A stretch of 64,000 bases of DNA, taken from assembly GCF_014610845.1 (NCBI RefSeq), contig NZ_JABTCG010000004.1, positions 1-64,000 of the forward strand. The letters are read 5' to 3'. Both the position numbers and the translations under genes were made by a program. Positions within the stretch are counted from its first letter, which is position 1. Each line of letters starts with the position of its first letter. The notes under the pieces were generated by a model. The model searched no databases, was not told where the DNA came from, and worked only from the letters and a program-made list of their open reading frames with translations. The DNA comes from Maribacter arenosus. Lineage in GTDB: Bacteria > Bacteroidota > Bacteroidia > Flavobacteriales > Flavobacteriaceae. Shown here piece after piece: positions 14,469 through 64,000 of this stretch.

Positions 14469-14471
14469 GCC

Positions 14472-19615: not shown

Positions 19616-21733
19616 TTATTTTAAGGCAAACGCAACAATCCGATTCCCTTTTACCGTTCCTAACTTTTCCCCTCCGCAAGCGATGGTAATGTATTGTTTG
19701 CCGTTGACTTCATACATAGCCGGCGTGGCGAATGCCGCTGCAGGCAGTTTATATTCCCACAGCAACTTACCGGTATATTTATCGAACACCCTGAAATAAC
19801 CAACTTTCGTGGCTCCAATAAACAACAATCCGTTCTCTGTAACGATGGGACCCCCATAATTCTCAGTTCCCGTACCCTTGCCTTCTGCCCCCAATTCCGG
19901 AGTGTCTCCAAACGGGACGGACCAAATATACTTACCGGTATTTAAATCGATGGCATGCAGGGTCCCCCATGGAGGCGAGATGCCCGGAAGGCCTTTATTA
20001 TCCAAAAATTTGTTGTATCCTGCATGTTTGTAAGGCAGGGGATAATGGTTCGATTCCCCGGATTTCACTTCCTTTCCAACATTTTCATCAAATAGAAAAT
20101 CAACCAAAGCTTCCTTTTCCTTATCTGGAATTTGGGGAAAACCGGTCATCATCCCTTTCCCATTAACGATTTGAACGGACACTTCCTCTCTGGTTTTTCT
20201 TGCCTTTATATCGATGAGTGATGGGAATCCACTGGCCGCCATGCCAGAACGGTCTACTTTATGGCAAATTACACAATTGTTGAGGTAAACTTGTTCCCCT
20301 AAAGAGATGTCTTCACTATTTCGAACTACCTCTTCCATTTGCAATATCCAGGCCATTTCGTTTGAATTCACATAAATGATGCCCTCGTACGGATTCGTTG
20401 CCGCGCCACCCCATTCGGCCGCCCCGTCGTATCCGGGCAAAAGTAAAACCGGACCTAGGCTTGGCGGCGCATATATGCGTTTATCGGACTTGGCAAGTAT
20501 TTCCTTTAATTCCTCTTTGTTTTCGGCAAACGGACTAATGTCATCTGCCGTTAACACATTCGATTGTCTTGCGAATGGCTTTGGTTCGACAGGAAAAGGT
20601 TGTGTAGGCCAGGCTTCCTCTCCTTCCAATTTTGAGGAGGGAACTGTTTTTTCGGCTATATCGAATAGGGGCTTTCCGGTTCTTCGGTCAAAAACATAGA
20701 CATATCCCTGCTTGGTCACCTGGGCTACTGCTGGAATCTTTTTTCCTTTGCGTTCAACCATCAAAAGATTTGGTGGGGCTGGGGGATCCCTATCCCAGAT
20801 ATCGTGATGGGTAAACTGAAAATGCCAGATGCGTTCCCCAGTATTCGCATCCAAAGCCAACAAACAATCCGAATATAAATTACTGCCCTTACGCATTCCG
20901 CCATAAAAATCAGGGGCCGCCGATCCCGTAGGGACATAAATAATGCCCAACCTTTTATCCAGTGCCATTCCTGCCCAATTATTCGCCGCACCCACCCACT
21001 TATTTTGGTAAGCCTTTATGTCTTTCCAAGTATCATATCCCTCCTCAGTTGGATAGGGAATCGTGTGAAATACCCATTCCAAAGCCCCGGTAATCACATT
21101 GAACGCCATGATATCCCCTCGGGCAGCATCAATATCCTCCGAAATTCGGAGCGGCATAACGATCAAATCCTTGTAAATTGTTCCAGGGGTATTTGAGATC
21201 ACAAACTTGTCTTTATCTTCCTCGGGCAAACCAGATCGGAGATCTATTTTCCCTTGATTACCAAAAGTAGATATAGGTTGGCCCGACAAGGCATCCAAAG
21301 CATACAAATCCGGACCCCTTGTAAAAAAAATGCGCCTATCATCCCCATTTTCCCAATAAGAAACCCCACGACTTGTGGAATGCCATACTTGCAATGAATC
21401 GCCGAACCGCCATATTTCCTCACCCGTTGCAGCATGTAAGGCAAAAGCACGTAAAGCGGCTGAAACCCCATAAAGCATTGTATCAATTACGATAGGATTC
21501 ATTTGCATTTGCCCCCAATCCGGAGACTCGTAAGACCAAACTACTTTTAAATCCTTTACGTTTTCCTTAGTTATTTGTGAAAGGGTGGAATAATGGCTTC
21601 GGCCCGAATCCCCTAAATAAGTCGACCAACTGGTATAGGATAGGGTCTTTGGGTTTGTATTCTCACAACTGATAAAAGAAATGAATAGAAAACTAACCGC
21701 AATCAATTTGCTTAGGGTTTTGTTGCAATGCAC
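19616..21733 (-). CDS. PQQ-dependent dehydrogenase with cytochrome c motif (lipoprotein)
   Basis: A 705-residue periplasmic or outer-membrane-anchored quinoprotein. The signal LIAVSFLFISFISC ends in a lipobox Cys. The rest is an eight-bladed propeller of the quinoprotein glucose-dehydrogenase type (DLKVVWSYESPDWGQ, HHDIWDRDPPAPPNLL, LLPGYDGAAEWGGAATNPYEG), with an inserted c-type heme site NNCVICHKVD near residue 484. Family members oxidise sugars or alcohols and pass electrons to the respiratory chain. It heads a tight run with the oxidoreductase and ligase genes. No PQQ synthesis genes are visible in the window, so the cofactor would be made elsewhere or taken up. Confidence 0.88.
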   Translation of the reverse strand: MHCNKTLSKLIAVSFLFISFISCENTNPKTLSYTSWSTYLGDSGRSHYSTLSQITKENVKDLKVVWSYESPDWGQMQMNPIVIDTMLYGVSAALRAFALHAATGEEIWRFGDSLQVWHSTSRGVSYWENGDDRRIFFTRGPDLYALDALSGQPISTFGNQGKIDLRSGLPEEDKDKFVISNTPGTIYKDLIVMPLRISEDIDAARGDIMAFNVITGALEWVFHTIPYPTEEGYDTWKDIKAYQNKWVGAANNWAGMALDKRLGIIYVPTGSAAPDFYGGMRKGSNLYSDCLLALDANTGERIWHFQFTHHDIWDRDPPAPPNLLMVERKGKKIPAVAQVTKQGYVYVFDRRTGKPLFDIAEKTVPSSKLEGEEAWPTQPFPVEPKPFARQSNVLTADDISPFAENKEELKEILAKSDKRIYAPPSLGPVLLLPGYDGAAEWGGAATNPYEGIIYVNSNEMAWILQMEEVVRNSEDISLGEQVYLNNCVICHKVDRSGMAASGFPSLIDIKARKTREEVSVQIVNGKGMMTGFPQIPDKEKEALVDFLFDENVGKEVKSGESNHYPLPYKHAGYNKFLDNKGLPGISPPWGTLHAIDLNTGKYIWSVPFGDTPELGAEGKGTGTENYGGPIVTENGLLFIGATKVGYFRVFDKYTGKLLWEYKLPAAAFATPAMYEVNGKQYITIACGGEKLGTVKGNRIVAFALK

Positions 21734-51005: not shown

Positions 51006-51776
51006 TTAATTACCGCTTAGGTTTTTGTCATATACCCAAATTTCATCCCAGCTATTATCTAATACCTGGTCATAATCAAGGATAAAGGTATCCCAGGATT
51101 CATTCCCATGGACCTTTAGAAAGGCAGCTTTGAATTTTGGGTCCTCATCATATTCTGCCCATTTCTTGCTGAATCCAACGGTGGCCAAATGCCTTCCAAG
51201 ATTACCCTGCCGGAATAGGTTATCATAAACGCCCCATGGGTTTTCCCCTTCCATGGATTTAACCGCATCGCTTATTTGTTTAAGGACGCGATCAACACTG
51301 TGGCCGTGTTCTGAATTAACTTCCCAGTATCTAACATGCAAAATAGGATAGACGGAAGAATCTGGCGTAAGCATACTTGTATTTGAAACTTTATCGTCTT
51401 GTTCCCAATATTCCCCGCTTTCTATTTTTTTGACATAGGGCATCACATTATCACGCCAATCCTCATCATGACCTCCTGCCGCAGGCCTTGTATCCAAGTC
51501 GGCAAATTTTAAAGGACCCATCATCCAAATCAATTTACCAGTATTGGGGCCAGAATTTATAGTGTATACAGTGACACTATGGGCGCCTTCACTATGATAT
51601 TTCTGGTTGTGCTTCCTCATATTTTCGCCAAATACCTTGAGTTTGGTATTATCAGGCGTTAACATAATCGATTCCCATATAGGTTCTTCCATAGTGCCTT
51701 CTTGGGCCTCTACGGTAACTAAAGCCCCAAAGACCATTGCGGTCAGGAGAGCAAATGAAAGTGTTTTTTTAAGCAT
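51006..51776 (-). CDS. Secreted protein of unknown function
   Basis: A 256-residue protein with a clear signal peptide (LLTAMVFGALVTVEAQ). The mature part is acidic and Trp/Tyr-rich with two similar halves (VTVYTINSGPNTGKLIWMMG and ATVGFSKKWAEYDEDPKFKA), which suggests a duplicated alpha-beta (dimeric alpha-beta barrel-like) fold, but no family is recognised. Monocistronic with its own terminator. Confidence 0.75.
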   Translation of the reverse strand: MLKKTLSFALLTAMVFGALVTVEAQEGTMEEPIWESIMLTPDNTKLKVFGENMRKHNQKYHSEGAHSVTVYTINSGPNTGKLIWMMGPLKFADLDTRPAAGGHDEDWRDNVMPYVKKIESGEYWEQDDKVSNTSMLTPDSSVYPILHVRYWEVNSEHGHSVDRVLKQISDAVKSMEGENPWGVYDNLFRQGNLGRHLATVGFSKKWAEYDEDPKFKAAFLKVHGNESWDTFILDYDQVLDNSWDEIWVYDKNLSGN

Positions 51777-51858
51777 TACGTTACGTTTTAAATTGTTAGA
51801 TTATTTTCCATGAAAGAACTTATTCTGCGGGGTAAACACAAACCAAAAAGGACGAAAC

Positions 51859-51975
51859 ATGGTCTATGATGTCCGAATGGCCATAAATATTTATCCAAAC
51901 CCGGCGAATGACCATGTTAAAATAAGTTTTTGGGATTCTACTGGAAGATTTTGTGCATGGGAAAAGTTCAATTAA
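51859..51975 (+). pseudogene. Stranded fragment of a T9SS type A sorting tail
   Basis: A 38-codon frame containing INIYPNPANDHVKISF and DSTGR, the hallmark of Por secretion system (type A) C-terminal tails, which normally end proteins of hundreds of residues. No body precedes it: 80 bp upstream is the start of the divergent secreted-protein gene. The last residues (CAWEKFN) no longer match a functional tail. Best read as the remnant of a deleted secreted-protein gene. Confidence 0.55.
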
Positions 51976-52270
51976 GCGATGGCCCAAATTGTTTATCCTG
52001 GGATTGTGGTAATTTCCAAACCCTCCAAAACCTCAAGCCAACTATATTAGTCCAGTACCCGCCCGATGAATGCATTTATTTTTCTCCTTTCAACTTCTTT
52101 AATCGTAATTCAACTGATGGGCACCTAAAGCTCCTACTCCTTGTAGTGCAATACATTTCGGTCGAAATACGACAAGGATCTGCTTTGTCGGGTAAAACCG
52201 TTCTTCGTCTAAAACAGGAATATACGTTCTGTTTCCATCGTACTATTGCTGCATTAAATTATTAACCCTT

Positions 52271-52378
52271 ATGATGCGAACAAGGATAAATTATATTGAG
52301 ATAGGAAAGTTTCTTATTTGTTTGGGCCTTGCCTGGATCGCTTGGATGTGCAGGTACCATACAGGCTCGGTTTTTTAA
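52271..52378 (+). CDS. Possible small protein, 35 residues
   Basis: An ATG ATG-started frame, MMRTRINYIEIGKFLICLGL then AWIAWMC and a short polar end. It has a hydrophobic stretch with Cys residues and is followed 31 bp later by an intrinsic terminator, which suggests the stretch is transcribed. No homology known to me; weak call. Confidence 0.25.
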   Translation: MMRTRINYIEIGKFLICLGLAWIAWMCRYHTGSVF

Positions 52379-52409
52379 AAGTGCTTTCGTGACAACTACT
52401 AAAGTTATC

Positions 52410-52440
52410 GGCCATTTCAATTTAGGGAATGGCCATTTTT
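52410..52440 (+). terminator. Intrinsic terminator
   Basis: GGCCATT (52410-52416) pairs with AATGGCC (52428-52434), followed by ATTTTTATTT. It ends whatever plus-strand transcript covers 52271-52378. Confidence 0.65.
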
Positions 52441-52712
52441 ATTTGAAGGTTTATTTATCCGGGCTTAGGTAAAGGAATTGAACACAAATGCCTTCATGAA
52501 TCTTCCCCAATAAAAGCGCATGAAAATGCTCTAACCTCTAAAACATGAATTCTTAGGGGTCTTATACTCAATTTGTATAATGATCTCACCAAATTATTGG
52601 GGTCTATTCTTAAAATTCTTCTGTTCGTCACAGGTCTTTGTGTAGCCATAAAAATCGACGAAAAAAATTGAATTATATGACTTTTATCATTATTTCGGTT
52701 TTTACCTTATTG

Positions 52713-52720
52713 TATTTTTG
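52713..52720 (+). promoter_or_regulatory. Candidate -7 element of the 52.9-64 kb operon
   Basis: TATTTTTG fits TAnnTTTG, the only exact match I found in the last 200 bp before the first gene of the cluster. It would leave a leader of about 175 bases. The -33 box is not convincing. Confidence 0.3.
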
Positions 52721-52902
52721 CCTTCCATAAATTAGGGTAAAACCCTACTGACTTGACTTATAATCAAAGTTAAAATATTGGATATTAGATTGTTACCAGG
52801 TCTATTGCTGTCAATTTGATGCACGATTGTTTATTATCCACAATGAATTTCGAACATTCCCTTATTGTTTAAAAGGGTTCGTTCCTATTTTAATAAAACA
52901 GC

Positions 52903-54648
52903 ATGACCGACAATCGAAAAAGAACTATCCCTACGAAAAGAAACGCCGTATTATCAGGTAAAGCATACCTTAGGGCTACTTATGTAACCAAGAATCTTCT
53001 AGTTACATTCTTAATAATAAGCTCCTTTGTAGGTTGTAATTCTGAAAATAAATCGACCGCTTCCACTCAAAAAACATCCATAAAGAAACCACCTGCTGCA
53101 AATGATGAGTTTTTTCAATCCATCGGAGAAGATATCGGTTTGGATTTTATGCATTCCATCGGAGCGGATCATATGGAGAACATTATAGAATCTGTTGGCG
53201 GTGGGGCTGCTTTTTTGGATTATGACCAAGATGGGTATATGGATATATATGTGTGTAGCGGCACTTGGGTAAAAGGGTTCAGTAAAAGTGAAAAACCAAA
53301 AAGTACAGCGACCAACCATCTGTATCGGAATAATCAGGATGGCACTTATGAAGATGTGACCCAAAAAGCTAAAGTTGGTGGCCCTTGGTATAGTATGGGG
53401 GTTACGGTTGGGGATTACGACAATGATGGCTTTCCCGATATATATGTAAGTAATAATGGGCCGAATACCTTATACAGAAATAATGGTAACGGTACTTTTT
53501 CAAATGAAACGGAGAAAGCATCGGTCGGTGGGGGCAAGTATTGCAGTGTAGGTGCCGTTTGGATGGATTATGACAATGATGGTTTTCTAGATCTTTACGT
53601 AGGGAATTACCTGAATTTCGACCCCGATTATAAATATTACTATGCGCCAGATGGCTTCCCAGGCCCCCTGGCCTATGATAGCCAACCCGATATTTTATAT
53701 CACAATAAGGGGAATGGCACTTTTGAGGACGTGACCCAAGCGATGGGAATAACAGATATCGATGGTAGGGCAATGGGCGTTGGTGCCGCGGATTATGATG
53801 ATGATGGTTTTGTTGACATTTATGTCGCAAATGACCATACGGTAAATTACCTCTGGCACAATGAGGGCGGCAAGGGATTTACAGATCGGGGTACCATGTC
53901 CGGCACTGGGTTTAGCCAATCGGGGGAGGCAACGGTAAGTATGTCGGTTGATTTCGCCGATTATAACGGGGATGGATTGTTGGATATTTTCATTTCTGAC
54001 GACAACTACTGTTCCCTTTATGAGAATTTGGGAAAGGGCGTTTTTAACGACCAATCGTACTATTCCGGTATTTCTGTGGCATCTGGCCAATTTGTAGGGT
54101 GGTCTTCCTCTTTTTTCGATTACGATAATGATGGCGATGCCGATATTTTTAAAACCAACGGAGAATTAAAACACCTATATGGCCAGGAGGATCAATTATT
54201 TGAAAATACCGAAAAAGGTAGATTCAAGGATGTATCCGTAGAGCGAAGTGGGTATTTCAAGGAAGAACATGTTGGCAGGGGAGCCTGTCTAGGGGATTAT
54301 GATAATGACGGGGATATCGATATCTATATCGTGAATTTAGATAGTATCGGTGTATTTCTACGCAATAACAAAGGGAACCAAAATAATTGGCTCACTTTGA
54401 AATTGGTCGGTAAAACCAGCAATCGGGATGGCATTGGGGCACGAATAAAACTCACATCTGGGGGTAAGGTGCAAACCACCCAGAAAAAAAGCACCACAGG
54501 ATACTTAAGCCAGAACGACCCACGGCTTCACTTCGGACTTCTAAATAACGACCTTGTTGAAAGCATCGAGATTAAATGGCCTTCAGGCAAAAACCAGGTT
54601 TTGGAACAGATCAAAGCCAACCAAATACTTACGATTGTAGAACCATAA
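52903..54648 (+). CDS. CRTAC1 family FG-GAP lipoprotein with ASPIC/UnbV domain
   Basis: A 581-residue surface or periplasmic protein. The N-terminus is long before the lipobox (LLVTFLIISSFVGC near residue 45), so a later start is possible. The body is a beta-propeller of FG-GAP/VCBS repeats with Ca2+-binding DxDxDG loops (FLDYDQDGYMDIYVCSG, GDYDNDGFPDIYVSN, ADYDDDGFVDIYVAN, DYDNDGDADIFKTNG), closed by the ASPIC/UnbV domain (DGIGARIKLTSGGKVQTTQK, LHFGLLNNDLVESIEIKWPS). Such proteins are abundant in Bacteroidota and Planctomycetes and their role is unknown. First gene of an eight-gene same-strand run; the next gene begins 10 bp on. Confidence 0.9.
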   Translation: MTDNRKRTIPTKRNAVLSGKAYLRATYVTKNLLVTFLIISSFVGCNSENKSTASTQKTSIKKPPAANDEFFQSIGEDIGLDFMHSIGADHMENIIESVGGGAAFLDYDQDGYMDIYVCSGTWVKGFSKSEKPKSTATNHLYRNNQDGTYEDVTQKAKVGGPWYSMGVTVGDYDNDGFPDIYVSNNGPNTLYRNNGNGTFSNETEKASVGGGKYCSVGAVWMDYDNDGFLDLYVGNYLNFDPDYKYYYAPDGFPGPLAYDSQPDILYHNKGNGTFEDVTQAMGITDIDGRAMGVGAADYDDDGFVDIYVANDHTVNYLWHNEGGKGFTDRGTMSGTGFSQSGEATVSMSVDFADYNGDGLLDIFISDDNYCSLYENLGKGVFNDQSYYSGISVASGQFVGWSSSFFDYDNDGDADIFKTNGELKHLYGQEDQLFENTEKGRFKDVSVERSGYFKEEHVGRGACLGDYDNDGDIDIYIVNLDSIGVFLRNNKGNQNNWLTLKLVGKTSNRDGIGARIKLTSGGKVQTTQKKSTTGYLSQNDPRLHFGLLNNDLVESIEIKWPSGKNQVLEQIKANQILTIVEP

Positions 54649-54658
54649 TAAGTTCCTA

Positions 54659-56089
54659 ATGGCTGATAATGGAATGAGACAAACCCTTTTTACGCTACTG
54701 ACCATTTTATGTTTCAGCACATTTTTTATTTCGTGCAATCAAAAGTCCAAAGAAGGCATGCTTGTTTTAACCCAAATGAAAGGGGATGTGCCAGCCGGAG
54801 ACTATACCTCCGGAAAGATGTGGAGGTATCTTCCCACGGCTAGATTGGTAACTCTTCAGCCCGATAACCCTAAAGGAACCCTTCAGGTATTGACCCCGGA
54901 CTTTTATTCGGCCTGTGGACCAAAAATAGCCTACGATGGTCGTTTTCTGCTCTTTGCAGGGCAAAAAAACGAAAATGATACTTGGCAGATTTGGGAAATG
55001 GATTTATCGAATAAAAAAACAAGACAGGTAACCGCCTCAAGTGAAAATTGTATTGATCCGGATTACTTACCAGGCAACAAATTGGTTTTTAGCAAATTAA
55101 TGGACAAGGGCACATTAAAATCAGGACATATGCTTTTTACGTGTAATCTTGATGGGTCGAAAATCAGCCAAATCACATTTGACCCAAGTACCTACTTAGC
55201 ATCCACAATATTACAAGATGGTCGCGTATTGACCATTGGAAAACAACTTTTGCCAAATGAGAAGAAGGGCGCATTTAAGGTGATGCGACCCGATGGTACC
55301 AAACAGGAATTGTTTTTTAAAGGGGACCCTACAACTAGTATACATAGCCCAGCCTGGGAGATGGGTAGCGGCAAAATCGTTTTCGCGGCCTCCAATGGGC
55401 AAAACCAAAACAGTATTATCTCTATTGATTACAATCGGCCCCTTCATAGCATGACCAATTTAACGGAAGGTTTACAAGGGGATTTTTATGGGGTCAGTAC
55501 GCTTCAGGACGAAAAACTATTGACCTCATATAGGGCAAATAAGGACAATTTATTCTCACTATATGAATTTGATGCTGAGGCCAAAACCTTAGGCAAGCCT
55601 ATATATCAAGACGAAACATACCAAATATTGGAAGCAGTTGCCATAAAAAGTCGACATAGGCCCAAAAAATTACCTAGTGAAGTTAATCCAGAGGTAGAAA
55701 CCGCATTATTGATGTGCCAGGATATCAATATTACGGCCATGGAAGATGAAGGAAACGACAAAACAGTAGAAGGGGCAACCCGATTCGAAATATTGGGAAT
55801 AGATGCTTCCTTAGGAATTTGGGATACAGAAAAGGATGGCTCTTTTTATCTAAAGATGCCAGCGGATACCCCATTTCGAATCCAAACCATCGATGGAAAC
55901 AACCAAATTGTAAATGGCCCAGGCAGTTGGCTGTATTTACGTCCCAATGAACGCAGGGGTTGTGTCGGATGCCATCAGAACAATGAGATGGCACCAAAGA
56001 ATAGGCAACCACTTGCCGTAAGGAAAGATCCCATTCAAATCGGTTTTGCAAAAAATGGAAATGATATAGAAAAGTATGTGATAGAGTAG
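54659..56089 (+). CDS. PD40/HZS-alpha-like lipoprotein with one heme-c motif
   Basis: A 476-residue lipoprotein (LTILCFSTFFISC); an alternative start at 54674 removes five residues. TolB-like propeller repeats follow (ACGPKIAYDGRFLLFAGQKN, LPGNKLVFSKLMDKG), then a C-terminal domain with LGIDASLGIWDTEKDGSFYL and, near residue 435, NERRGCVGCHQNNEMAPKN with a CxxCH heme site. This architecture resembles proteins carrying the hydrazine-synthase alpha middle domain, which are widespread outside anammox bacteria and do not imply hydrazine chemistry. It lies between the CRTAC1 and cytochrome-propeller genes. Confidence 0.8.
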   Translation: MADNGMRQTLFTLLTILCFSTFFISCNQKSKEGMLVLTQMKGDVPAGDYTSGKMWRYLPTARLVTLQPDNPKGTLQVLTPDFYSACGPKIAYDGRFLLFAGQKNENDTWQIWEMDLSNKKTRQVTASSENCIDPDYLPGNKLVFSKLMDKGTLKSGHMLFTCNLDGSKISQITFDPSTYLASTILQDGRVLTIGKQLLPNEKKGAFKVMRPDGTKQELFFKGDPTTSIHSPAWEMGSGKIVFAASNGQNQNSIISIDYNRPLHSMTNLTEGLQGDFYGVSTLQDEKLLTSYRANKDNLFSLYEFDAEAKTLGKPIYQDETYQILEAVAIKSRHRPKKLPSEVNPEVETALLMCQDINITAMEDEGNDKTVEGATRFEILGIDASLGIWDTEKDGSFYLKMPADTPFRIQTIDGNNQIVNGPGSWLYLRPNERRGCVGCHQNNEMAPKNRQPLAVRKDPIQIGFAKNGNDIEKYVIE

Positions 56090-56092
56090 GTC

Positions 56093-58129
56093 ATGAAGAA
56101 AACTAGATTATTACTATTATTCGGTGCGCTAGTCGTTCTAGGTTTGCTGATTTATTTCCCAGGACACAAATGGGCAAGAAAGCATGTAAATTATATGACG
56201 GCAGTCACAGACCATCCACTAAAATGTACTTCGTGCCATTTGAGCACCTCAAAAAACGCCTTCATTGTTAAAATGTTGAATGAGGATTATTTTTCCCCTT
56301 TCAATAGTGCCGTCTCCAAGGATGGAAGCCGTTTATATGTGGTTTCACAGGATTTGGATCAACTATTGGTCGTTGACACCAAAGAGAAAACGGTTTTAGA
56401 TCACATCATGGTGGGGGTTCACCCGCATAGCGTGATTCTTGATCAGGATAACAGCTTGGCCTATGTTAGCAATCAATGGTCAGACAATGTCTCCGTAATC
56501 GATTTGGCTACCTCAAAGGTTGTCGATACGCTCGATACAGGGAACGGTCCATCCGGATTGGTTTTAAGTGCCGACGGCCGATTTTTACATGTGGTCAATA
56601 CCTTTGGTTCCGACCTATCGATTATTGACCTAACCTCCAAGAAGGAGATCAAGCGATTGGTTACGGGCAGCGATCCGACGGGAACGGCATTGTCCCCTGA
56701 CGGCAAAACATTGATGGTAACCAGCAGAAGGGCCAGAATGGTGCCGTATGGTGAACCTTTGGTCAGTGACCTGACCCTGATCAATGATAGCACCCAGTTG
56801 ATAACTAAACATATGGATGTCGAAGAGGCCTACTTGATGGAGAATATAGCCTTTACCCCATCAGGCGATCTGGCATTGATGACGTTGATCCGACCCAAGA
56901 ATCTAGTGCCTACGGTACAAGTGGAAGGTGGTTGGATGATGACCCATGGCATTGGGGTCATCGAACAAAATGAAGATGGAAGAATCGTTCAGTTGCTGTT
57001 AGACGAACCCAATTCCTATTATTCAGACCCTTTCGATATCGTTATTTCCCCTGACGGAAAAATGGCATATGTATCAAATTCAGGGGTCGATTGCATCTCC
57101 GTGATTTCCATAGATTCCATAAGGGCTATTATAAAATCCACCTCTACAAAAAGATTGGAGACCATTGCCAATGACTTGGGAATGAGTAGTCGGTTTGTCC
57201 TTAAACGGATCAAGACCGGCGCGAACCCCAAAGGGCTTACGCTCTCCCCCGATGGTAAAAAGCTGTACATCGCAGAACAGTTAGAAGATAGGATCGGGGT
57301 TATAGATACCGAAACGCTGATCAAGGAGAAGTCTATTGATTTAGGAGGACCGGATAGGATAACAGTTGCCCGACAGGGGCGTAGGTTATTTAACAATGCC
57401 GGACATACGTTTCAGAACCAATATGCCTGCTACACCTGCCACCCCGACAACCATGAGGATGGCCTAGTGTATAACATGGCAGGGAAAGATATGGGCCGCA
57501 ATGTTACCAATACCCAATCTTTAAGGGAGATAGGGGATACACCGCCTTTTAAATGGAACGGTAAGAACCAAACCATTTATAAGCAAGATGGTATGCGATT
57601 TTCAACCGTATTGACAAGAACGGAGCAATTTAGTTACGACGATCTTGATGCCCTAGTGGCCTATATCAAAAGGGGGATAAAGTATCCTCCCAATCTGATG
57701 TACAATCCCCATGGCGAATTGTCCGAAGCACAACTTCGGGGCAGGGAATTATTCAATAGAAGTGAGGATAATTTAGGCAACGTTATTCCCGAGAACAATC
57801 GATGTATAACCTGCCATCCTCCACCATTCTATACCAATTTAAAAGCTTTCGACGTAAGCACTTTGGCGGTAACCGATGACTCCATCTTATTCGACACACC
57901 TCATCTAAACAATATCTATGCTTCAGCCCCTTATTTGCACGATGGTCGCGCAAAAACTCTGGAGGAAATTTGGACCATATATGGTCAGGATGATAAACAT
58001 GGCTATGTAAACGATATGACCAAAATGCAATTGAACGACCTGATCGAATATTTGAAATCGATTCGGGCATCAGAATATTATCAAGAGGAAGAAACCGAAC
58101 AACAGGCCTCATTTGTAAAAACCGATTAA
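56093..58129 (+). CDS. Membrane-anchored YVTN propeller fused to MauG/CCP-like cytochrome c
   Basis: A 678-residue protein anchored by an N-terminal helix (LLLLFGALVVLGLLIYF). Next comes a CxxCH heme site in PLKCTSCHLS (~residue 44), a seven-bladed YVTN/lactonase-like propeller (GVHPHSVILDQDNSLAYVSN, GNGPSGLVLSADGRFLHVVN, GSDPTGTALSPDGKTLMVTS), and a C-terminal part with two further CxxCH (YACYTCHPDNHEDG, NRCITCHPPPF) and the MauG/cytochrome-c-peroxidase signature FDTPHLNNIYASAPYLHDG. Electron transfer at the periplasmic face is a sound inference; the donor and acceptor are unknown. Only 3 bp separate it from the upstream gene. Confidence 0.88.
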   Translation: MKKTRLLLLFGALVVLGLLIYFPGHKWARKHVNYMTAVTDHPLKCTSCHLSTSKNAFIVKMLNEDYFSPFNSAVSKDGSRLYVVSQDLDQLLVVDTKEKTVLDHIMVGVHPHSVILDQDNSLAYVSNQWSDNVSVIDLATSKVVDTLDTGNGPSGLVLSADGRFLHVVNTFGSDLSIIDLTSKKEIKRLVTGSDPTGTALSPDGKTLMVTSRRARMVPYGEPLVSDLTLINDSTQLITKHMDVEEAYLMENIAFTPSGDLALMTLIRPKNLVPTVQVEGGWMMTHGIGVIEQNEDGRIVQLLLDEPNSYYSDPFDIVISPDGKMAYVSNSGVDCISVISIDSIRAIIKSTSTKRLETIANDLGMSSRFVLKRIKTGANPKGLTLSPDGKKLYIAEQLEDRIGVIDTETLIKEKSIDLGGPDRITVARQGRRLFNNAGHTFQNQYACYTCHPDNHEDGLVYNMAGKDMGRNVTNTQSLREIGDTPPFKWNGKNQTIYKQDGMRFSTVLTRTEQFSYDDLDALVAYIKRGIKYPPNLMYNPHGELSEAQLRGRELFNRSEDNLGNVIPENNRCITCHPPPFYTNLKAFDVSTLAVTDDSILFDTPHLNNIYASAPYLHDGRAKTLEEIWTIYGQDDKHGYVNDMTKMQLNDLIEYLKSIRASEYYQEEETEQQASFVKTD

Positions 58130-58140
58130 CACACATCATT

Positions 58141-59328
58141 ATGGCTAAAAAAGCATTTTTTAAAAATTCTGGATCCATTGCATCGCTACTGATTGTTTTG
58201 GTCATTGGATCCTTAGGTTTTGTACTACCCGACACATTTACTAACGACCATAAACAAAGCGTCGTGAACGCAGGGTCATCCGCAAAAAAAGAAATAGAAC
58301 CAACACGAATAAAAGCGGATAACCCTATGCCAATTTATGGCAACTGGAAAAATTTCACTTCAAAAAACGGGTTGCCGGGCGATAAGGCCTATTGTGTCAA
58401 GATAGATGGTGATAGGGTCTTGGTCGGCACGCATGAAGGTTTGGCCGTCTATCAGGACGGGAAATGGAAAACCTATACCACTGAGGACGGGCTTGCGCAT
58501 AACGGCGTTTTGGCCATAGATGTAAGCAAGCAAACCGGGGATGTGTGGTTGGGCACCATGGGCGGGTTAACAAGATGGTCGACTGGCACTTTTGAGAATT
58601 TCACCCAAATGAACAGTGGAATGCCCAATAATCTAATCTATGCCGTTACCTGCGATGGGAAGGATGTCTGGGTAGCCACAGGAGGTGGTGCCGGGCACTA
58701 TGATACCTATGCCAAAAAATGGCAGATTTTCACAGAGGAAAATGCACCGATGCACGAACCATGGACCTATGGCGTATGTGCCGGTGATGGTAAAATCTTC
58801 ATTGCCGCATGGGGAGGTGGCGTAGTGGAGTATACCAAAAAAACAAAAAAATTCAGGGATTATGTTGATCCCGATGGTAATATGGAAATCGATCTTTTCC
58901 CAGATGATGGCATTGTCCATGATATAACTACAGGCACATCTTGGTCTAACGGAATTTTATGGGTCGGCACATATTTCGGGTTGAGTCGATATGACGGTGT
59001 ACACTGGAAAGGCTATTTCGATCATGATAGCGGCTTGGCAAGCAATTTCATCAACTTTATCAAAGCATCTGGTGATGTGGTATTTATTTGCACCGACAAA
59101 GGTTTAAGCACTACGGACGGTAACAATTGGATTACCTATACAAAAAATGAAACCAATACCAATGGGAAGGCTGTATTGCTTACGGATACCCATAGTACAG
59201 AAATGACCATGACGCCCTCGATTTCCCATAATTATACCATAGGGGTCGATGTTGAGGGGGAACAAATATGGGTGGCTACCTCGAAAGGCGTTAGTCAGGG
59301 CGAATTATTAAAACAACCGTTACAGTAA
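58141..59328 (+). CDS. Reg_prop-type beta-propeller secreted protein
   Basis: A 395-residue protein with an N-terminal membrane or signal segment (GSIASLLIVLVIGSLGFVLP). The rest is a propeller of two-component-regulator-propeller type repeats (FTSKNGLPGDKAYCVKIDGD, YTTEDGLAHNGVLAIDV, VWLGTMGGLTRWSTGTFENF, VWVATGGGAGHYD). Unlike hybrid two-component sensors it has no kinase part, so it is a free-standing sensor or scaffold domain. Gap of 11 bp from the cytochrome gene. Confidence 0.82.
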   Translation: MAKKAFFKNSGSIASLLIVLVIGSLGFVLPDTFTNDHKQSVVNAGSSAKKEIEPTRIKADNPMPIYGNWKNFTSKNGLPGDKAYCVKIDGDRVLVGTHEGLAVYQDGKWKTYTTEDGLAHNGVLAIDVSKQTGDVWLGTMGGLTRWSTGTFENFTQMNSGMPNNLIYAVTCDGKDVWVATGGGAGHYDTYAKKWQIFTEENAPMHEPWTYGVCAGDGKIFIAAWGGGVVEYTKKTKKFRDYVDPDGNMEIDLFPDDGIVHDITTGTSWSNGILWVGTYFGLSRYDGVHWKGYFDHDSGLASNFINFIKASGDVVFICTDKGLSTTDGNNWITYTKNETNTNGKAVLLTDTHSTEMTMTPSISHNYTIGVDVEGEQIWVATSKGVSQGELLKQPLQ

Positions 59329-59364
59329 AAATAAAATTAAAACTAACAATTATAAAAAGAGATT

Positions 59365-59961
59365 ATGGAAAGCACAATGGAACGCAAAGGGAATAAGAAA
59401 ATGCTGATAGATCTTTCAAAACTTACAGAAGGTGAAGTGGTGGAAATGAGAAAACTTGGGATTTTAACAGAGGACCATCAAATCAGTGAAACGGTTTATC
59501 CTCCAATACATTTGGAAAGGCCTCCGATCGAAAAACATGTTGTACACGCCCCACATACGATTAACGAAGCCTACAACTATCAAAAACCATCTTCCTTTTC
59601 AAGGGCGTTACGCTTGGATCTTGGAGGGTATAAGGTATTATTGGTTTCAGGCACCGCCAGTGTAAACGAGAAAGGGCTTCCTGAACATATAGGGGACTTT
59701 AAAGCGCAATTATGGCGTACCTATGTGAATATCACGAATTTATTGGCAGCTGAAGGTATGACTTGGCACGATGTGGTACGCACAACCAACTACCTTAGGG
59801 ACATTGAAAGGGATTATGGGGAATTCAATAAGATCAGAACGTCTTTCTACACTTGGTTAGGCCTTGACCCCCTACCTGCTGCCACCGGAATCCAGGCCAG
59901 ATTATGCTGGGAAACCTTACTTGTAGAAATTGAAGTTTACGCGATCTGTAAGGCAAATTAA
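59365..59961 (+). CDS. RidA (YjgF/YER057c/UK114) family protein
   Basis: A 198-residue cytosolic protein. The C-terminal ~125 residues are the RidA fold: VLLVSGTASVNEKGLPEHIG, LWRTYVNITNLLAAEGMTWH, DVVRTTNYLRDIERDYGEFN, and the conserved Arg plus Glu in ATGIQARLCWETLLVEIEVY. Canonical members hydrolyse reactive imines; this one has an extra N-terminal ~70 residues and lies in the extended YjgF group, so the activity is unproven. It is the only protein in the run that lacks an export signal. It points to an enamine or imine intermediate in the system. Confidence 0.85.
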   Translation: MESTMERKGNKKMLIDLSKLTEGEVVEMRKLGILTEDHQISETVYPPIHLERPPIEKHVVHAPHTINEAYNYQKPSSFSRALRLDLGGYKVLLVSGTASVNEKGLPEHIGDFKAQLWRTYVNITNLLAAEGMTWHDVVRTTNYLRDIERDYGEFNKIRTSFYTWLGLDPLPAATGIQARLCWETLLVEIEVYAICKAN

Positions 59962-59972
59962 AATACGAAACC

Positions 59973-61289
59973 ATGGCGACACGTAATTATAGGTTCATTG
60001 GGTTGATTTTACTGGTTCTGATTTTTCATCCCAAGCTGGTGAATGGTCAGGATGATTTGATGTATGGCAATACACCTGACAGTATCTTTCCATATCACAA
60101 TTTTCAAAAAGCCTACAAATATCATTTTATTGAACCCATAGAGTTTTATGGTGCGGGTCGTGATAAGAAACCACCCTCGGACCTTACGGAAATCCGTATT
60201 GGCTTCTTAGGCCCATTGGAAGGCTCCCCGCTGGTACCTCTCGGCAAGCAAATGCTGAACGGATCCATGTTGGCCCTTGAGCAGGCCAATGCCAATGGAG
60301 GCTATCAAGGGATTCCATATAAGTTAATGATCCATAATGATGTCGGTCTATGGGGGGCCGCCGCGAATGAAGTGGTACAAATGGATGATGAAAAAGTATG
60401 GGCGTGGTTGGGTTCTATCGACGATATCGTTTCCCATGTTGCATTAAGGGCCACCTTAAAAATGGAAATCATGATGGTGAATACCGGGGACCCGGACCCT
60501 ACCTTTACCGAGACTAACATCCCTTGGGCCATACGCGTCATCAGTGATGATCGCCAAAGCGGATATGCCTTGGCATCCTACATTTTCAATACCATGCAAC
60601 ATGAACGTGTTGCTGTGATACGGGCGAACAACCGCTACGGTCGCGTAGGTATTATGGAGTATGCGGGGGTTGCCGTGCGAATGGGGCATCCGATGATGAT
60701 CGAAGAACGATTTGAAGTGGGGGAAACCGATTTCTCCATGCAATTGGAAAATATCAAAGAAGCTAATCCTGATGGGATCTTGATTTGGGGCAATGCCAAG
60801 GAATCGGCGTTGATTGTAAAACAGATCAGGGCCTTGGGCATGAAACAACCAATTTACGCATCCGACAGAGTGGTTTCAGCCGAGTTTTTGGAGATAGCAG
60901 GTGAAGATGCCGAATCAATTGTGAGTACATGCCAATACAATCCGAAAGCGGACAATCCCAAATTGAAGCAATTCCAATCGGATTATTTGAAACGGTTTGG
61001 AATTGAACCGGATGTTTTCGCGGCACATGCCTATGATGGAATGAACCTGATTATTGCCGCCATAAGGAAAAAGGGCCTAAATCGGGTGCTCATCCGCGAT
61101 GTCCTCACCGATTTGAAAACTTTCCAGGGATATGAAGGGGTTACTGGGGAAATACGATTGGACGAAAGTTGGAACGATATAGGGAAGATTTGGATGACCA
61201 AGGTTGAAAATGGGGAGTTCCATTACACGGCCAGTCCAACGACGCAAGAAAAAAATTACGCACGAAAAGGCAAAAGAATTAACCGTTAA
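59973..61289 (+). CDS. Type 1 periplasmic binding protein (LivJ-like), copy A
   Basis: A 438-residue secreted receptor (signal ending HPKLVNGQ) of the branched-chain amino-acid binding fold: RIGFLGPLEGSPLVPLGKQM, GSMLALEQANANGGYQGIPY, VWAWLGSIDDIVSHVALRAT, VAVIRANNRYGRVGIMEYAG, DGILIWGNAKESALIVKQI. It lacks permease and ATPase neighbours in the window, so it may act as a receptor or chaperone instead of a transporter component. Related binding proteins occur in PQQ alcohol-dehydrogenase clusters. The next gene encodes a second, divergent copy. Confidence 0.88.
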   Translation: MATRNYRFIGLILLVLIFHPKLVNGQDDLMYGNTPDSIFPYHNFQKAYKYHFIEPIEFYGAGRDKKPPSDLTEIRIGFLGPLEGSPLVPLGKQMLNGSMLALEQANANGGYQGIPYKLMIHNDVGLWGAAANEVVQMDDEKVWAWLGSIDDIVSHVALRATLKMEIMMVNTGDPDPTFTETNIPWAIRVISDDRQSGYALASYIFNTMQHERVAVIRANNRYGRVGIMEYAGVAVRMGHPMMIEERFEVGETDFSMQLENIKEANPDGILIWGNAKESALIVKQIRALGMKQPIYASDRVVSAEFLEIAGEDAESIVSTCQYNPKADNPKLKQFQSDYLKRFGIEPDVFAAHAYDGMNLIIAAIRKKGLNRVLIRDVLTDLKTFQGYEGVTGEIRLDESWNDIGKIWMTKVENGEFHYTASPTTQEKNYARKGKRINR

Positions 61290-61299
61290 GTCATGCCTT

Positions 61300-62403
61300 A
61301 TGAACAAGGTTTTTTTCCTTTGCACCGCTTTTTTTGTCCTGCTCTTTCAACCTGGCTTGGCACAACAATCGCATACCGGAAAAGTAAAAACCGTAAAAAT
61401 CGGGTTATTGGTGAACGACCAAACCAGTCGTGAAGCACAGAATGCAGCCGAATTGGCCATATTTCTTGCCAATGAAAAGGCAGGTGCGAACGGCACCCAT
61501 TTTCAATTAATTACACGATCCATGGAAGGTGCTTGGGGCACAGGCTCGAATGAAGCTGTAAACCTGGTCTTCGAAGAAAAGGTATGGGTAATCCTAGGAT
61601 CCCATGATAGTAGGAATGCGCATTTGGTAGAACAGGTTATTGCCAAGACCAAAGTGGTTTTTTTGTCAGCATGGGCCAGTGACCCTACCCTTTCCCAAGC
61701 TTTTATCCCTTGGTTCTACAACTGTGTCCCAAACGACATTCAACAAGCGGAAGTCTTGATCCAAGAAATGGTCCTAAACAGAAAAATCCAGAAAATAGCC
61801 GTAATTGTACAAGAAAATTACGATGCGGCAAAAGCGTTGAAATCCGTAAAAGACCAACTACAACGTCTTAGTCATCCTGATCCAAATGTCTCAACGTATA
61901 CCTTCTGTTCCGAACATCCACAAGCGTGCATTAAAGATATACAGGATGATGCCCATGAAGCTTTAATACTTCTAGGCGATGGGGAATCATCATGGGAGTT
62001 ATTGCACCTACTACGAAAGAAAGGATTAGGGATTCCCGTCTTTGGGACTATTTCGATGCTTGGAGCCCAAAATTTAAGACAAGTGGAATCTGAAACCCCA
62101 TTAAATTTAACAGTATTGAGTTCGGGAAACTGGATGAAATCAAATACCTTAGATTCGCAAAAAGGGCCATCAGGTTCCGTTAGTATTTCGAATGCCATAG
62201 CGGCCTATGCCTTTGATGGCACCAACGTACTTATAGACGCAATAAAATCTTCTGGGTTCAATCGGGATACATTTAACGAAACCATGGCCAAAACCAATAA
62301 AAATGGTATAACAGGGAATATCCAATTCGATAAAAACGGGAATCGGATGAATACATTAAATTTGGTAAAAATCGCGAACAACCCTATTTCCAAAAAATTT
62401 TAA
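61300..62403 (+). CDS. Type 1 periplasmic binding protein (LivJ-like), copy B
   Basis: A 367-residue protein from the ATG at 61300, which has a clean signal peptide (FFLCTAFFVLLFQPGLAQ); earlier in-frame starts lie inside copy A. Fold landmarks parallel copy A: TVKIGLLVNDQTSREAQNAA, EKVWVILGSHDSRNAHLVEQ, KIAVIVQENYDAAKALKSV, AAYAFDGTNVLIDAIKSSGF. It is shorter and quite different in sequence from copy A, so the two may recognise different ligands or form a heterodimer. Its stop abuts an in-frame ATG of the next gene region. Confidence 0.87.
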   Translation: MNKVFFLCTAFFVLLFQPGLAQQSHTGKVKTVKIGLLVNDQTSREAQNAAELAIFLANEKAGANGTHFQLITRSMEGAWGTGSNEAVNLVFEEKVWVILGSHDSRNAHLVEQVIAKTKVVFLSAWASDPTLSQAFIPWFYNCVPNDIQQAEVLIQEMVLNRKIQKIAVIVQENYDAAKALKSVKDQLQRLSHPDPNVSTYTFCSEHPQACIKDIQDDAHEALILLGDGESSWELLHLLRKKGLGIPVFGTISMLGAQNLRQVESETPLNLTVLSSGNWMKSNTLDSQKGPSGSVSISNAIAAYAFDGTNVLIDAIKSSGFNRDTFNETMAKTNKNGITGNIQFDKNGNRMNTLNLVKIANNPISKKF

Positions 62404-62439
62404 ATGCCGACACCTTCCTCTTTCTTAAACTTTCATTCC

Positions 62440-64000
62440 ATGAAACGCACTTGTATTTTTCTCTCACTATTTCTGATTGCCATCATCTTTTCGAGGTGTA
62501 AGGAAACCGCAGAGGAAATTAAGGAAAAAGAAATAGAAATGATTTCCACCCAAACCATGGGCCTTGCCTATCTGGAATTGTTCAAACTTGAAGAGGCTGA
62601 AGAATCGTTTATAAAATACATATCGCTAGCCCCCGACAGGAAAATGGGATATGCAAATTTGGGATTGGTTTATCTACGAATGGGCAAGTATGCAGAAGCC
62701 GAGGAACAGCTCTTAAAGGCCATAGACATAGATGCCAAAGATGCGGATATCAATTTGATTTTGGCCACCGTTTATCAAATGAACGAACAGAAAGACAAAG
62801 CGATCTCTATCTTGAACCGTTCGCTTGATTTTGACCCTGAGCACGAAAAATCATTATACATGCTCTCGGAGATATACGTTTCGGAAGGAGATGACGCCTT
62901 CCAAAGTAAAAGAAAGAAATGTTTGATTGATTTGGTACGAAAGGCACCTGACAATATTGTTCCCATTTTGGAATTGACCGCCATTTATATACGTAATTCG
63001 GAGGCAGATAAGGCCATTGAGCAATTGGAAACCATAAAAAAACGGTTCCCCGAGTTTCCGAAAGAGGCGGTTGATTACTATAGTGATACGATTGACTTTT
63101 TAAGAATACCCGATGCGGAAAAGGCGTTGACCTCATTTATGATTTTTCATAACTATTTAAAGGTGACTTTCCCTTATCAAGGCGGAATCAAGGAATTAAA
63201 AGGGTCCCAAGGTTCGTTGATTGGCCTTCCCTTGATTACCTATGACCTGAATCATTCAGCCCTTAAAGATGATAATACATCCATTCTGGAGGTCATTAAG
63301 TTTACCGATGCCACAAGTGCAGTCGGTTTAGACGCCGTTCCGATATTCGAAAACCATTCCGATCTCGAGAAACAATACATAACACATGTAACTGCTGCAG
63401 ATTACGATAGTGATGGCGATTTGGATATCTATGTAGGAAGTTACAATACCGAAAACGAAACCTATGAACATTTTCTTTTCAACAATGATCTAAGTCTGTT
63501 TTGGGATATTTCAATGGATGTTGGAATTACCCATTCCGGAAAGGAATCATCGGCAGTTTTTACCGACTACGACAATGATGGCTTCCTTGACCTTTATGTG
63601 GTAAAAGAAGGAGGCAATATTCTTTATAAAAATGCTGGGGAAGGAAAGTTCAATGATGTTACCAAAGAAGCATTATTGGATGCCGAACGGGAAAGTACAA
63701 ATGCACTGTTTCTTGATTTAGACCATGATGGGGACTTGGATATTTTCGAGACCGGGCCTGGACCAAACTATGTCTTTCGCAACAATGGTGATGGTACTTT
63801 TGTAGAACAAGCTGAAAAAATGGGATTGGCCGGAAGTGCTATCAAGGGTAACGATGCAGCCTTTGGGGATTTTGATGATGACGGGGATATAGATCTTTTC
63901 GTAGCCAATGATAATGCAGCGAACAACCTATATACCAATCAAAGACAAGGTGTATTCAATGATATTTCCCAAAACAACCTACCTGCCAATAACAAGGGAA
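62440..64000 (+). CDS. TPR plus FG-GAP (CRTAC1-like) lipoprotein, 3' partial
   Basis: The frame is open to the right edge, about 520 residues seen. The ATG at 62440 gives a lipoprotein signal (LFLIAIIFSRC); an in-frame ATG at 62404, immediately after the preceding stop, would add twelve residues. Residues ~30-200 are TPR repeats (GLAYLELFKLEEAEESFIKY, GYANLGLVYLRMGKYAEAEE, NLILATVYQMNEQKDKAISI). Then FG-GAP repeats with Ca2+-type loops (TAADYDSDGDLDIYVGSYN, TDYDNDGFLDLYVVKEGG, LDLDHDGDLDIFETGPG, GDFDDDGDIDLFVANDN). An ASPIC/UnbV domain probably follows outside the window. It mirrors the CRTAC1 protein that opens the cluster. Confidence 0.88.
   Translation, partial: MKRTCIFLSLFLIAIIFSRCKETAEEIKEKEIEMISTQTMGLAYLELFKLEEAEESFIKYISLAPDRKMGYANLGLVYLRMGKYAEAEEQLLKAIDIDAKDADINLILATVYQMNEQKDKAISILNRSLDFDPEHEKSLYMLSEIYVSEGDDAFQSKRKKCLIDLVRKAPDNIVPILELTAIYIRNSEADKAIEQLETIKKRFPEFPKEAVDYYSDTIDFLRIPDAEKALTSFMIFHNYLKVTFPYQGGIKELKGSQGSLIGLPLITYDLNHSALKDDNTSILEVIKFTDATSAVGLDAVPIFENHSDLEKQYITHVTAADYDSDGDLDIYVGSYNTENETYEHFLFNNDLSLFWDISMDVGITHSGKESSAVFTDYDNDGFLDLYVVKEGGNILYKNAGEGKFNDVTKEALLDAERESTNALFLDLDHDGDLDIFETGPGPNYVFRNNGDGTFVEQAEKMGLAGSAIKGNDAAFGDFDDDGDIDLFVANDNAANNLYTNQRQGVFNDISQNNLPANNKG

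Follow-up and report, generated by a model that had tools for sequence, protein, structure and literature searches.

Eight consecutive plus-strand genes at the end of a 64,000-nucleotide stretch of the genome of the marine bacterium Maribacter arenosus (contig NZ_JABTCG010000004.1, positions 1 to 64,000, hereafter the window; genome of 4.17 Mb in 24 contigs) raise the question of what a set of exported heme, propeller and binding proteins is doing around a single RidA-fold protein. The initial annotation, made from the sequence of the window, saw in them an extracytoplasmic redox or sensing system. Genes 2 and 3 of this run are homologues of the whole complex of hydrazine synthase (HZS), the enzyme through which anammox bacteria convert ammonium to dinitrogen, by profile, by sequence and by fold, and the run belongs to a conserved HZS-family operon, a conclusion that leaves hardly any room for doubt. 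That this operon encodes a biosynthetic pathway is rather probable. The reading favoured as a whole, namely a biosynthetic pathway in which a periplasmic HZS-family enzyme carries out the oxidising step, is put forward tentatively, and a chorismate-derived product is a more doubtful suggestion still.

The eight open reading frames (ORFs), their order and their Pfam-level domain assignments stand as initially annotated, with intergenic gaps of 3-36 bp provided that the second binding protein (BP2) and the TPR/FG-GAP gene start at inner ATGs (Table 1). An N-terminal export signal or lipobox was likewise recognized by eye in seven of the eight proteins, RidA being the one without. The system is one unit, as was first thought, but it comprises eleven genes and not eight: the run was read on past the end of the window to contig position 69972, and the three further genes (CRTAC1b, AsnL and rSAM), joined by overlaps or short gaps, could not be seen in the window any more than the DAHP synthase carried by relatives. 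In the first gene, the CRTAC1-type domains are clear (Pfam FG-GAP_3 3.8e-55, UnbV_ASPIC 3.8e-22).

Table 1. Genes of the operon and heme-related sites of its HZS-like proteins (contig numbering, identical to that of the window)
Feature	Position	Strand	Description
CRTa	52903..54648	+	CRTAC1-type FG-GAP/ASPIC-UnbV lipoprotein, first operon gene; lipobox by eye
HzsA-like (gene 2)	54659..56089	+	Lipoprotein (by eye); beta-propeller and HZS-alpha middle domain, one c-type heme motif
alphaI-type heme site, CVGCH	55961..55975	+	HzsA residues 435-439
HzsBC-like (gene 3)	56093..58129	+	Beta-gamma fusion; N-terminal membrane anchor (by eye); extra N-terminal heme
Extra N-terminal heme site, CTSCH	56225..56239	+	HzsBC residues 45-49; in 58/60 homologues, the other two gapped there
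gammaI-type heme site, CYTCH	57428..57442	+	HzsBC residues 446-450; 60/60
Trp488	57554..57556	+	Aligned with gammaHis144 of HZS; Trp in 60/60
gammaII-type heme site, CITCH	57803..57817	+	HzsBC residues 571-575; 60/60
RegP	58141..59328	+	Exported (by eye) Reg_prop beta-propeller protein; Pfam Reg_prop 1.5e-5
RidA	59365..59961	+	RidA-fold protein, no export signal; Ribonuc_L-PSP 6.2e-14
BP1	59973..61289	+	LivJ-type binding protein, exported (by eye); Peripla_BP_6 3.4e-43
BP2	61300..62403	+	LivJ-type binding protein, exported (by eye); Peripla_BP_6 2e-22; ATG 61300 read from sequence
TPRFG	62404 to contig 66012, past window end	+	TPR + FG-GAP + ASPIC lipoprotein, 1202 aa
CRTAC1b (CRTb)	66009-67673, beyond window		Second CRTAC1-type protein
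AsnL	67698-69026, beyond window		Asparagine-synthetase-like; PF00733 1.4e-10
rSAM	69019-69972, beyond window		RaSEA-like radical SAM protein; TIGR01210 5.2e-33, under cut-off

The protein of gene 2 matches the HZS alpha models of Pfam (PF18582, 1.6e-16) and NCBIfam (NF052339, 1.1e-22). Its PDB counterpart is 5c2v_A, found at 3.3e-17 with the single sequence and at 2.9e-36 with a profile, and the same chain is the best PDB fold for its AlphaFold model (pLDDT 85.3; E 1.1e-23, TMq 0.77), the next protein, TolB, following at 2.7e-11. Exactly one CxxCH is present in all 54 full-length HzsA-like proteins, which means that the alphaII motif is absent, and in none of the 54 does a Tyr occur within eight residues after the CxxCH, so that there is no equivalent of alphaTyr591.

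Gene 3 corresponds to the other two subunits. It matches the NCBIfam beta-gamma fusion model NF052342 (1.8e-70) as well as NF052340 (3.7e-61) and NF052341 (9.7e-27), and in Pfam a YVTN-type propeller and CCP_MauG. Residues 65-406 align with 5c2v_B (1.3e-47 single sequence, 1.8e-58 as profile) and the protein also matches 5c2v_C (3.4e-20 and 3e-23, respectively). The labels first given to genes 2 and 3 thus hold as far as HZS-alpha, propeller and MauG/CCP-like are concerned, but gene 3 is an HZS beta-gamma homologue and not a generic propeller joined to a MauG. The heme motifs had been counted correctly, with one CxxCH in gene 2 and three in gene 3, and these numbers are conserved in 54/54 and 58/60 homologues; the other two HzsBC-like proteins have two. 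A PYLHDG-type motif is also kept, with H616 in 59/60. Trp488 was matched to gammaHis144 by profile alignment, the numbering being transferred manually with gammaHis106 as reference; none of the 60 proteins has a Cys in the segment following Trp488, which in HZS contains gammaCys165. According to the accessible text of PMC12758564, the Trp488 position is that of the catalytic Trp of MauG/CCP.

Whether these homologues make hydrazine is a separate matter. The bit scores remain far below the NCBIfam equivalog cut-offs (79.7 versus 800, 207.2 versus 560, 93.8 versus 625 and 238 versus 1250). The roles of alphaTyr591 (a heme ligand), gammaHis144 and gammaCys165 are stated in PMC12607021 and in the available part of PMC12758564; the latter reports, for the HZS homologues of its clades I-III, the Tyr591 gap together with the Trp and concludes that they do not make hydrazine, observations with which the residue counts in the Bacteroidota group agree. 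Since the Tyr591 equivalent is missing and Trp takes the place of gammaHis144, the HZS-like enzyme is probably no true hydrazine synthase, and to judge from its residues the operon enzyme is very likely not of the anammox type. Anammox metabolism was rejected mainly on the residues at the alphaTyr591, gammaHis144 and gammaCys165 positions. The retention of both the alphaI and the gammaI heme motifs makes a two-site enzyme with another chemistry likely.

The operon is not peculiar to one genome. One scan of genome contigs with gene 3 yielded 71 loci, 68 of them in Bacteroidota (many on short contigs), with 55-77% identity of the best segment, in Flavobacteriaceae, Bacteroidales, Chitinophagaceae, Prolixibacteraceae and others; below, L numbers designate loci or stretches and G numbers genomes. 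Three loci belong to the same genus (L011, Maribacter polysiphoniae; L012, M. luteus; L048, M. aquimaris); L011 and L012 cover the operon as far as AsnL, and L108 carries the AsnL-rSAM pair of M. polysiphoniae. In three Gemmatimonadetes loci (L079, L080, L081), gene 3 was matched in its YVTN propeller only, at 33-37% (34-37% in the scan), as by a distant relative, and no matches to the other operon genes were found in these stretches. The recurrent order, as far as the flanks reach, is CRTAC1-HzsA-HzsBC-Reg_prop-(RidA)-BP1-(DAHP synthase)-BP2-TPR/FG-GAP-CRTAC1-AsnL-rSAM. Counted over the loci with enough flank, HzsA lies directly upstream of HzsBC in 60/62, CRTa is in its expected place in 48/50 and RegP is downstream of HzsBC in 59/59, while RidA is found in 38/54, BP1 in 50/50, BP2 in 42/43, TPRFG in 39/41 and CRTb in 33/39. 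When all ORFs of at least 120 aa in the 68 loci were clustered into families as a background control (CRTa and CRTb merging into one family, and BP1 and BP2 likewise), the eight operon families recurred in 35-66 of the 68 loci, against 15 for the most frequent family from outside the operon. The same gene order in 68 Bacteroidota loci is what a single, mostly extracytoplasmic redox-heme assembly, as initially proposed, leads one to expect, and the lack of joint conservation that had been named as the point on which that proposal could fail was not found. The commonest outside families are response-regulator-like (15/68) and sensor-kinase-like (13/68), by eye; such regulator-like genes (e.g. 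L027:66-785 and L039:5151-6647; also L116 and L117) are possible regulators in Bacteroidales.

AsnL (12 loci, in two clusters) and rSAM (4 loci) scored low in this control, most loci stopping short of them. In 13 downstream stretches (L108-L118, L122, L123), the operon finishes directly with AsnL-rSAM; the pair precedes CRTa in three loci (L036, L050, L055) and stands upstream on the other strand in L031; rSAM was found in 24 of 25 genomes. Across genomes, the system is uncommon, but its members go together. Among 99 relatives, PF18582 was matched in eight and AsnL was found in six, the six being exactly those in which the PF18582 match falls in a 475-493-aa open frame. In the other two, of the same genus as M. 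arenosus (G002 and G007; L009 and L010), PF18582 lies in open frames of 1087-1095 aa and AsnL was not found; these would represent a different HZS-alpha-containing family. Among 392 genomes of the phylum, gene 3 was matched at 1e-30 in five (four strongly, one at 27%; the scoring took in no more than three first-look candidates from each genome, which may have cost some weak matches), and AsnL at 1e-20 gave 25 matches that include all four strong gene-3 genomes.

AsnL has no Cys in its first 20 residues (10/10), so that the glutaminase Cys of asparagine synthetase B is absent, and its PP-loop SxGxDS is present as SAGIDS in 10/10. The rSAM protein has the CxxxCxxC motif in 14/14 and reaches 114.6 bits with the RaSEA (archaeosine) model TIGR01210, below the cut-off of 212.15; no solved relatives of the AsnL and rSAM profiles were found at E 0.01. 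Of the 49 loci with both binding proteins in view, 34 encode a DAHP synthase between BP1 and BP2, and all 34 copies were confirmed, with 64-100% identity to the L016 copy and lengths of 285-308 aa (the L074 copy is split, 185 aa). The L016 protein matches NF006421 (1.5e-132) over model positions 71-336 of 338 and lacks the first 70, which we take to be the feedback-regulation part; it exceeds the TIGR01361 cut-off (394.6 versus 267.75 bits). Of 26 genome handles, 15 have a copy scoring above this cut-off, and by manual comparison its position agrees with the operon in every case; in a 16th, G118, the copy is split. All 26 handles, which stand for 25 genomes (G057 and G110 share identical coordinates), have another, weaker-scoring DAHP synthase elsewhere. 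The operon of M. arenosus itself is without the gene, and its genome holds two other matches below the cut-off.

AsnL and rSAM also travel without HZS. Of the 24 AsnL places outside the M. arenosus genome in the 392-genome search, 19 were read, and no HZS genes occur in these 19 stretches. In 18 of them (L158-L174, L176), AsnL and rSAM are followed on one strand by a flavin halogenase/monooxygenase (FMO), some of the cassettes carrying another gene between AsnL and rSAM; the 19th, L177, stops after rSAM at a contig end. The cassette shares with the operon the gene order and the proteins (AsnL 55-62% and rSAM 40-55% identical) and differs from it in the third gene, whose product matches the tryptophan halogenase family PF04820 (1.1e-14), CmlS and QhpG (3.2e-19). 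It looks like a small biosynthetic cluster, and no paper on it was found in the open-licence PMC literature. In two genomes of one genus, genes near AsnL-rSAM (L171:158-3338, in reversed-strand coordinates, and L177:695-3729) appear to resemble eboA, eboB and eboC. A flavin halogenase was also considered as a missing partner in HZS carriers and discarded: the search for an FMO was negative in 31 of 33 carrier handles (G057 and G110 counted apart), those with one being G240, where it adjoins an AsnL-rSAM pair located apart from the HZS operon, and G469. In the AsnL tree, all but one (L031) of the 19 rows labelled as HZS, taken from HZS loci or carrier genomes, group in a single clade with a support of 100/99 (rows L112 and L181 being from the same genome). 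The cassette probably joined the HZS operon once, other carriers keeping an FMO-type pair elsewhere, and because AsnL-rSAM pairs elsewhere with FMO, the HZS-like complex probably took over the oxidising step in most carriers.

RidA and the binding proteins, from which the initial annotation had taken its clues to the substrate, fared less well as guides. RidA was thought to signal an amine or imine-forming compound; the position of the catalytic Arg (presumably Arg105 of E. coli RidA), taken from alignments, is Ser in 28 and Ala in 11 of the 39 full-length operon proteins and Arg in none, so that a role as enamine/imine deaminase was rejected. Where present, operon RidA is well conserved (71-88% best-segment identity); it is missing from 16 of 54 loci, and of 19 genomes searched, those without an operon copy had none at all or weak or short matches. 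Its similarity to the chorismatase model TIGR04444 is weak (1.6e-5; 24.4 bits versus a cut-off of 325) and confined to profile positions 176-262 of 311, and a function as chorismatase (FkbO/Hyg5 type, as 5ag3 and 5a3k are taken to be) is kept as a faint possibility. The best solved relative of BP1 is 3td9 (1.8e-27). A LivH/LivM-type permease (BPD_transp_2, PF02653) has no match in the whole genome, by a search that was positive in 12 of 14 control genomes and negative in the Bacteroides one, which makes the absence weak evidence against the transport context initially considered. Because no such permease was found, a role of the binding proteins other than LivH/LivM-type import is likely, and ABC import via BP1 and BP2 was rejected. 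In G240, a SusC/SusD pair directly follows BP1 (L175:12522-17066).

These elements can be arranged in a pathway with two halves. One is exported (by eye) and consists of the HZS-family alpha/beta-gamma hemoprotein, the CRTAC1, Reg_prop and TPR/FG-GAP proteins and the two LivJ-type binding proteins; the other has no export signals and consists of the RidA-fold protein, AsnL (of ATP-pyrophosphatase type) and rSAM, plus DAHP synthase in many relatives. DAHP synthase would raise the flux through the shikimate pathway, AsnL would activate a carboxylate and couple it to an amine, and rSAM would rearrange or cleave the resulting adduct. The product would then exit the cytoplasm and be oxidised by the HZS-family enzyme, in which the gamma site, with Trp for His144, may act as a di-heme peroxidase and supply the alphaI-type heme with a radical or reactive intermediate. 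BP1 and BP2 might bind the product or its precursor, as receptors or chaperones, and the FG-GAP/TPR lipoproteins might form a scaffold.

Several observations weigh against this pathway or against the homologies on which it is built. In the single-sequence search, the archaeal S-layer YVTN propeller 1l0q (1.4e-53) outscores 5c2v_B; its match consists of several repeated pieces while the alignment to 5c2v_B runs unbroken along the entire beta propeller, and 5c2v_B leads both with the profile and by fold (6.3e-28 as best PDB fold for the propeller model, 1l0q being second at 7.3e-21). Nearly all of residues 437-678, the gamma domain, have pLDDT <50 or little above; the fold of this domain was therefore dropped as too poorly modelled to use, and its site was placed from the sequence. 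The PDB relatives of the binding proteins are mostly branched-chain amino-acid binders and give no pointer to an aromatic ligand. AsnL-rSAM does not always adjoin the operon, lying apart from it in L121 (G119) and L124 (G113), and rSAM was not matched in G108 and only as a 67-residue fragment in G117. DAHP synthase is absent from the operon of M. arenosus and from 15 of the 49 loci showing BP1 and BP2, and it occurs without RidA in 10 loci and RidA without it in 12; since RidA, too, is missing from 16 of 54 loci, the chorismate link is not universal. Finally, the AsnL of L031 stands among FMO-type rows even though no FMO was found in its genome, and the AsnL of the carriers G240, G446 and G469 (rows labelled FMO-type before the tree was built) sits in the FMO-type part of the tree. 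In G446, the AsnL stretch reaches its contig boundary right behind rSAM, and an FMO may simply have been cut off there. With these FMO-type AsnL proteins, and with an FMO present in G240 and G469 as well, the HZS part is no strict replacement of FMO.

Of the other explanations, the one that survives best, while still unlikely, takes HzsA-HzsBC for a periplasmic di-heme CCP-like peroxidase or redox branch acting on peroxide or NO, in protection or respiration, with AsnL, rSAM and RidA maturing or regulating it and no secreted metabolite. Trp488 as in MauG/CCP (60/60), the PYLHDG-type motif and the CCP_MauG match agree with it, and the membrane anchor and extra N-terminal heme resemble an electron entry (by eye). 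It leaves unexplained the DAHP synthase of 34/49 loci and the AsnL-rSAM-FMO module, and the alphaI-type heme subunit, presumably dispensable for plain peroxidases, is invariant (54/54). A second, improbable, explanation is a MauG-like maturation in which HzsA-HzsBC oxidises residues of a CRTAC1, Reg_prop or binding-protein partner to give a protein-bound cofactor, rSAM and AsnL acting on the same partner. The NCBIfam relationship of the gamma domain to MauG/MbnH points this way, as does the QhpG match of FMO, since rSAM and FAD enzymes jointly make quinone cofactors, as in QHNDH. Gaps of at most 36 bp leave no room for a precursor peptide gene among the eleven genes, although small ORFs in the flanks could hold one (of those of at least 20 aa, two follow rSAM and eleven lie around the stretch upstream of CRTa); moreover, the best NCBIfam match of rSAM is RaSEA, with no SPASM or QhpD model at E 0.01, and DAHP synthase again has no place.

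Little credence is given to a genuine N-N (or N-O) bond former, which would make hydrazine or a substituted hydrazine from NO or hydroxylamine and an amine, to serve as the nucleophile of AsnL. It would be in keeping with the homology to every HZS subunit and with the preserved alphaI and gammaI heme motifs, and also with AsnL, whose missing glutaminase Cys (10/10) implies a nucleophile not obtained from glutamine by the usual route. The residues speak otherwise (Tyr591 equivalent in 0/54, Trp for gammaHis144 in 60/60, gammaCys165 in 0/60, alphaII absent), as does the same verdict for clades I-III in the accessible text of PMC12758564; a multiheme of HAO type (PF13447) was matched in 1/33 carrier handles (G121), in a search with no positive control among 14 control genomes; and the hydrazine would have to re-enter the cell, because AsnL has no export signal and HzsA-HzsBC is exported (by eye). 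A ligand-sensing or uptake assembly, which would recognize an extracellular compound through its binding proteins and propellers, has a similarly small chance of being right: two LivJ-type proteins without a LivH/LivM-type permease in the genome, the response-regulator-like and sensor-like families (15/68 and 13/68, by eye) and the SusC/SusD pair of G240 accord with it, but two-component genes occur in a minority of loci (a lower bound, many loci being short), none is seen beside the M. arenosus operon (by eye) and the biosynthetic enzymes are left without explanation. Unrelated units that are neighbours by accident are hardly credible and largely refuted by the clustering of the 68 loci, with the order kept in Flavobacteriaceae, Bacteroidales, Chitinophagaceae and Prolixibacteraceae while flanking genes vary, even if promoter scans cannot show a single transcript (for sigma-70-type sites in 51700-64000, 27 versus 32.4 expected in shuffles; for a Bacteroidota-type pattern, five in the window versus 4.28, none of the five in or just before the operon).

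Elsewhere in and around the window, a PQQ (pyrroloquinoline quinone)-dehydrogenase context, suggested initially by the propeller and LivJ-like proteins, found no support: by eye, there is no dehydrogenase gene within the operon or over the 18 kb of contig sequence that follows the window. The sole PQQ-dehydrogenase-like gene seen, at 19616-21733 (minus strand; by eye), has a CxxCH motif, lies ~31 kb from the operon and adjoins Gfo/Idh-like and acyl-CoA-synthetase-like genes. Upstream of the operon, a divergent gene at 51006-51776 (minus strand) encodes a 256-aa protein with a signal-like N-terminus and no Pfam match at E 0.01, and at 13854-15698 (minus strand) a gene resembling DNA cytosine methyltransferases has a small neighbour that may be related to restriction (by eye).

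As to significance, Maribacter is a culturable genus with the whole operon and thus a route to the wider chemistry of the HZS family and to the origin of anammox. The biosynthetic half of the operon is a concrete, testable lead to substrate and product that the published clade III description, in its accessible text, lacks. Low-threshold hzs searches of metagenomes could conversely mistake such genes for anammox.

Comparison with known systems begins with HZS itself, which, according to the accessible text of PMC12758564, was regarded until recently as an enzyme without relatives. HzsABC of anammox bacteria (PDB 5C2V) shares with the Bacteroidota proteins an alpha subunit made of a propeller and the alphaI heme domain, a seven-bladed beta propeller and a di-heme gamma; the beta-gamma fusion is as in Scalindua (same source), and both are exported. 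The Bacteroidota proteins differ in having no alphaII motif, no Tyr591 equivalent, no Cys165 and Trp for gammaHis144, and the operon in the extra N-terminal heme and in the alpha gene that precedes the beta-gamma gene. A bolder generalization, unlikely to hold, would make HZS the anammox offshoot of a wider paired-heme tailoring family: Bacteroidota HzsA-HzsBC would form an N-N, N-O or N-C bond on a secreted, shikimate-derived amide or amine made by the cytoplasmic ligase/rSAM pair, the intermediate arising at gammaI and condensing at alphaI as in the two-site logic of HZS, with a supply through a dedicated DAHP synthase in many species. With MauG and the bacterial di-heme CCPs, gene 3 shares the two-heme gamma-type domain (two CxxCH) and the catalytic Trp position (60/60); it is set apart from them by a YVTN propeller in the same polypeptide and by its HZS-alpha-like heme protein partner.

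In other phyla, hzsABC-like genes have been described in Phycisphaerae UBA1845 and in KSB1 metagenome-assembled genomes (PMC10732223). In UBA1845, the hzsA-like gene lies directly upstream of a fused hzsBC-like gene, as here; operon neighbours are not mentioned in the accessible text, which presents the Phycisphaerae as possible novel anammox bacteria. The idea that HZS-like proteins form a broad family acting on other substrates was raised earlier, in this Oslofjord study. The hzsA of PMC12153308, which in the part available belongs to a Planctomycetota metagenome-assembled genome, is not relevant. The closest counterpart is clade III of the HZS homologues of Hagglund et al. 2025 (PMC12758564), in whose accessible text the CRTAC1, alpha, beta-gamma order, one extra heme motif, the lack of alphaII and two ABC substrate-binding proteins downstream are all shared. 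The operon core is very probably this clade III system, and the initial view that no system of this composition had been described is superseded, since the HZS-like core, together with the upstream CRTAC1 and the two binding proteins, was reported in December 2025. The clade III text, as far as accessible, names no RegP, RidA, DAHP synthase, TPR/FG-GAP, AsnL or rSAM and no taxa for the clade ('asparagine' has no match in the main text), and it proposes no function. What the present analysis adds, as far as searches of the open-licence PMC literature (preprints excluded) can tell, is the full operon of 11-12 genes with its boundaries and its phylum-wide order, the membership of DAHP synthase, RidA, AsnL and rSAM, and the AsnL-rSAM-FMO counterpart.

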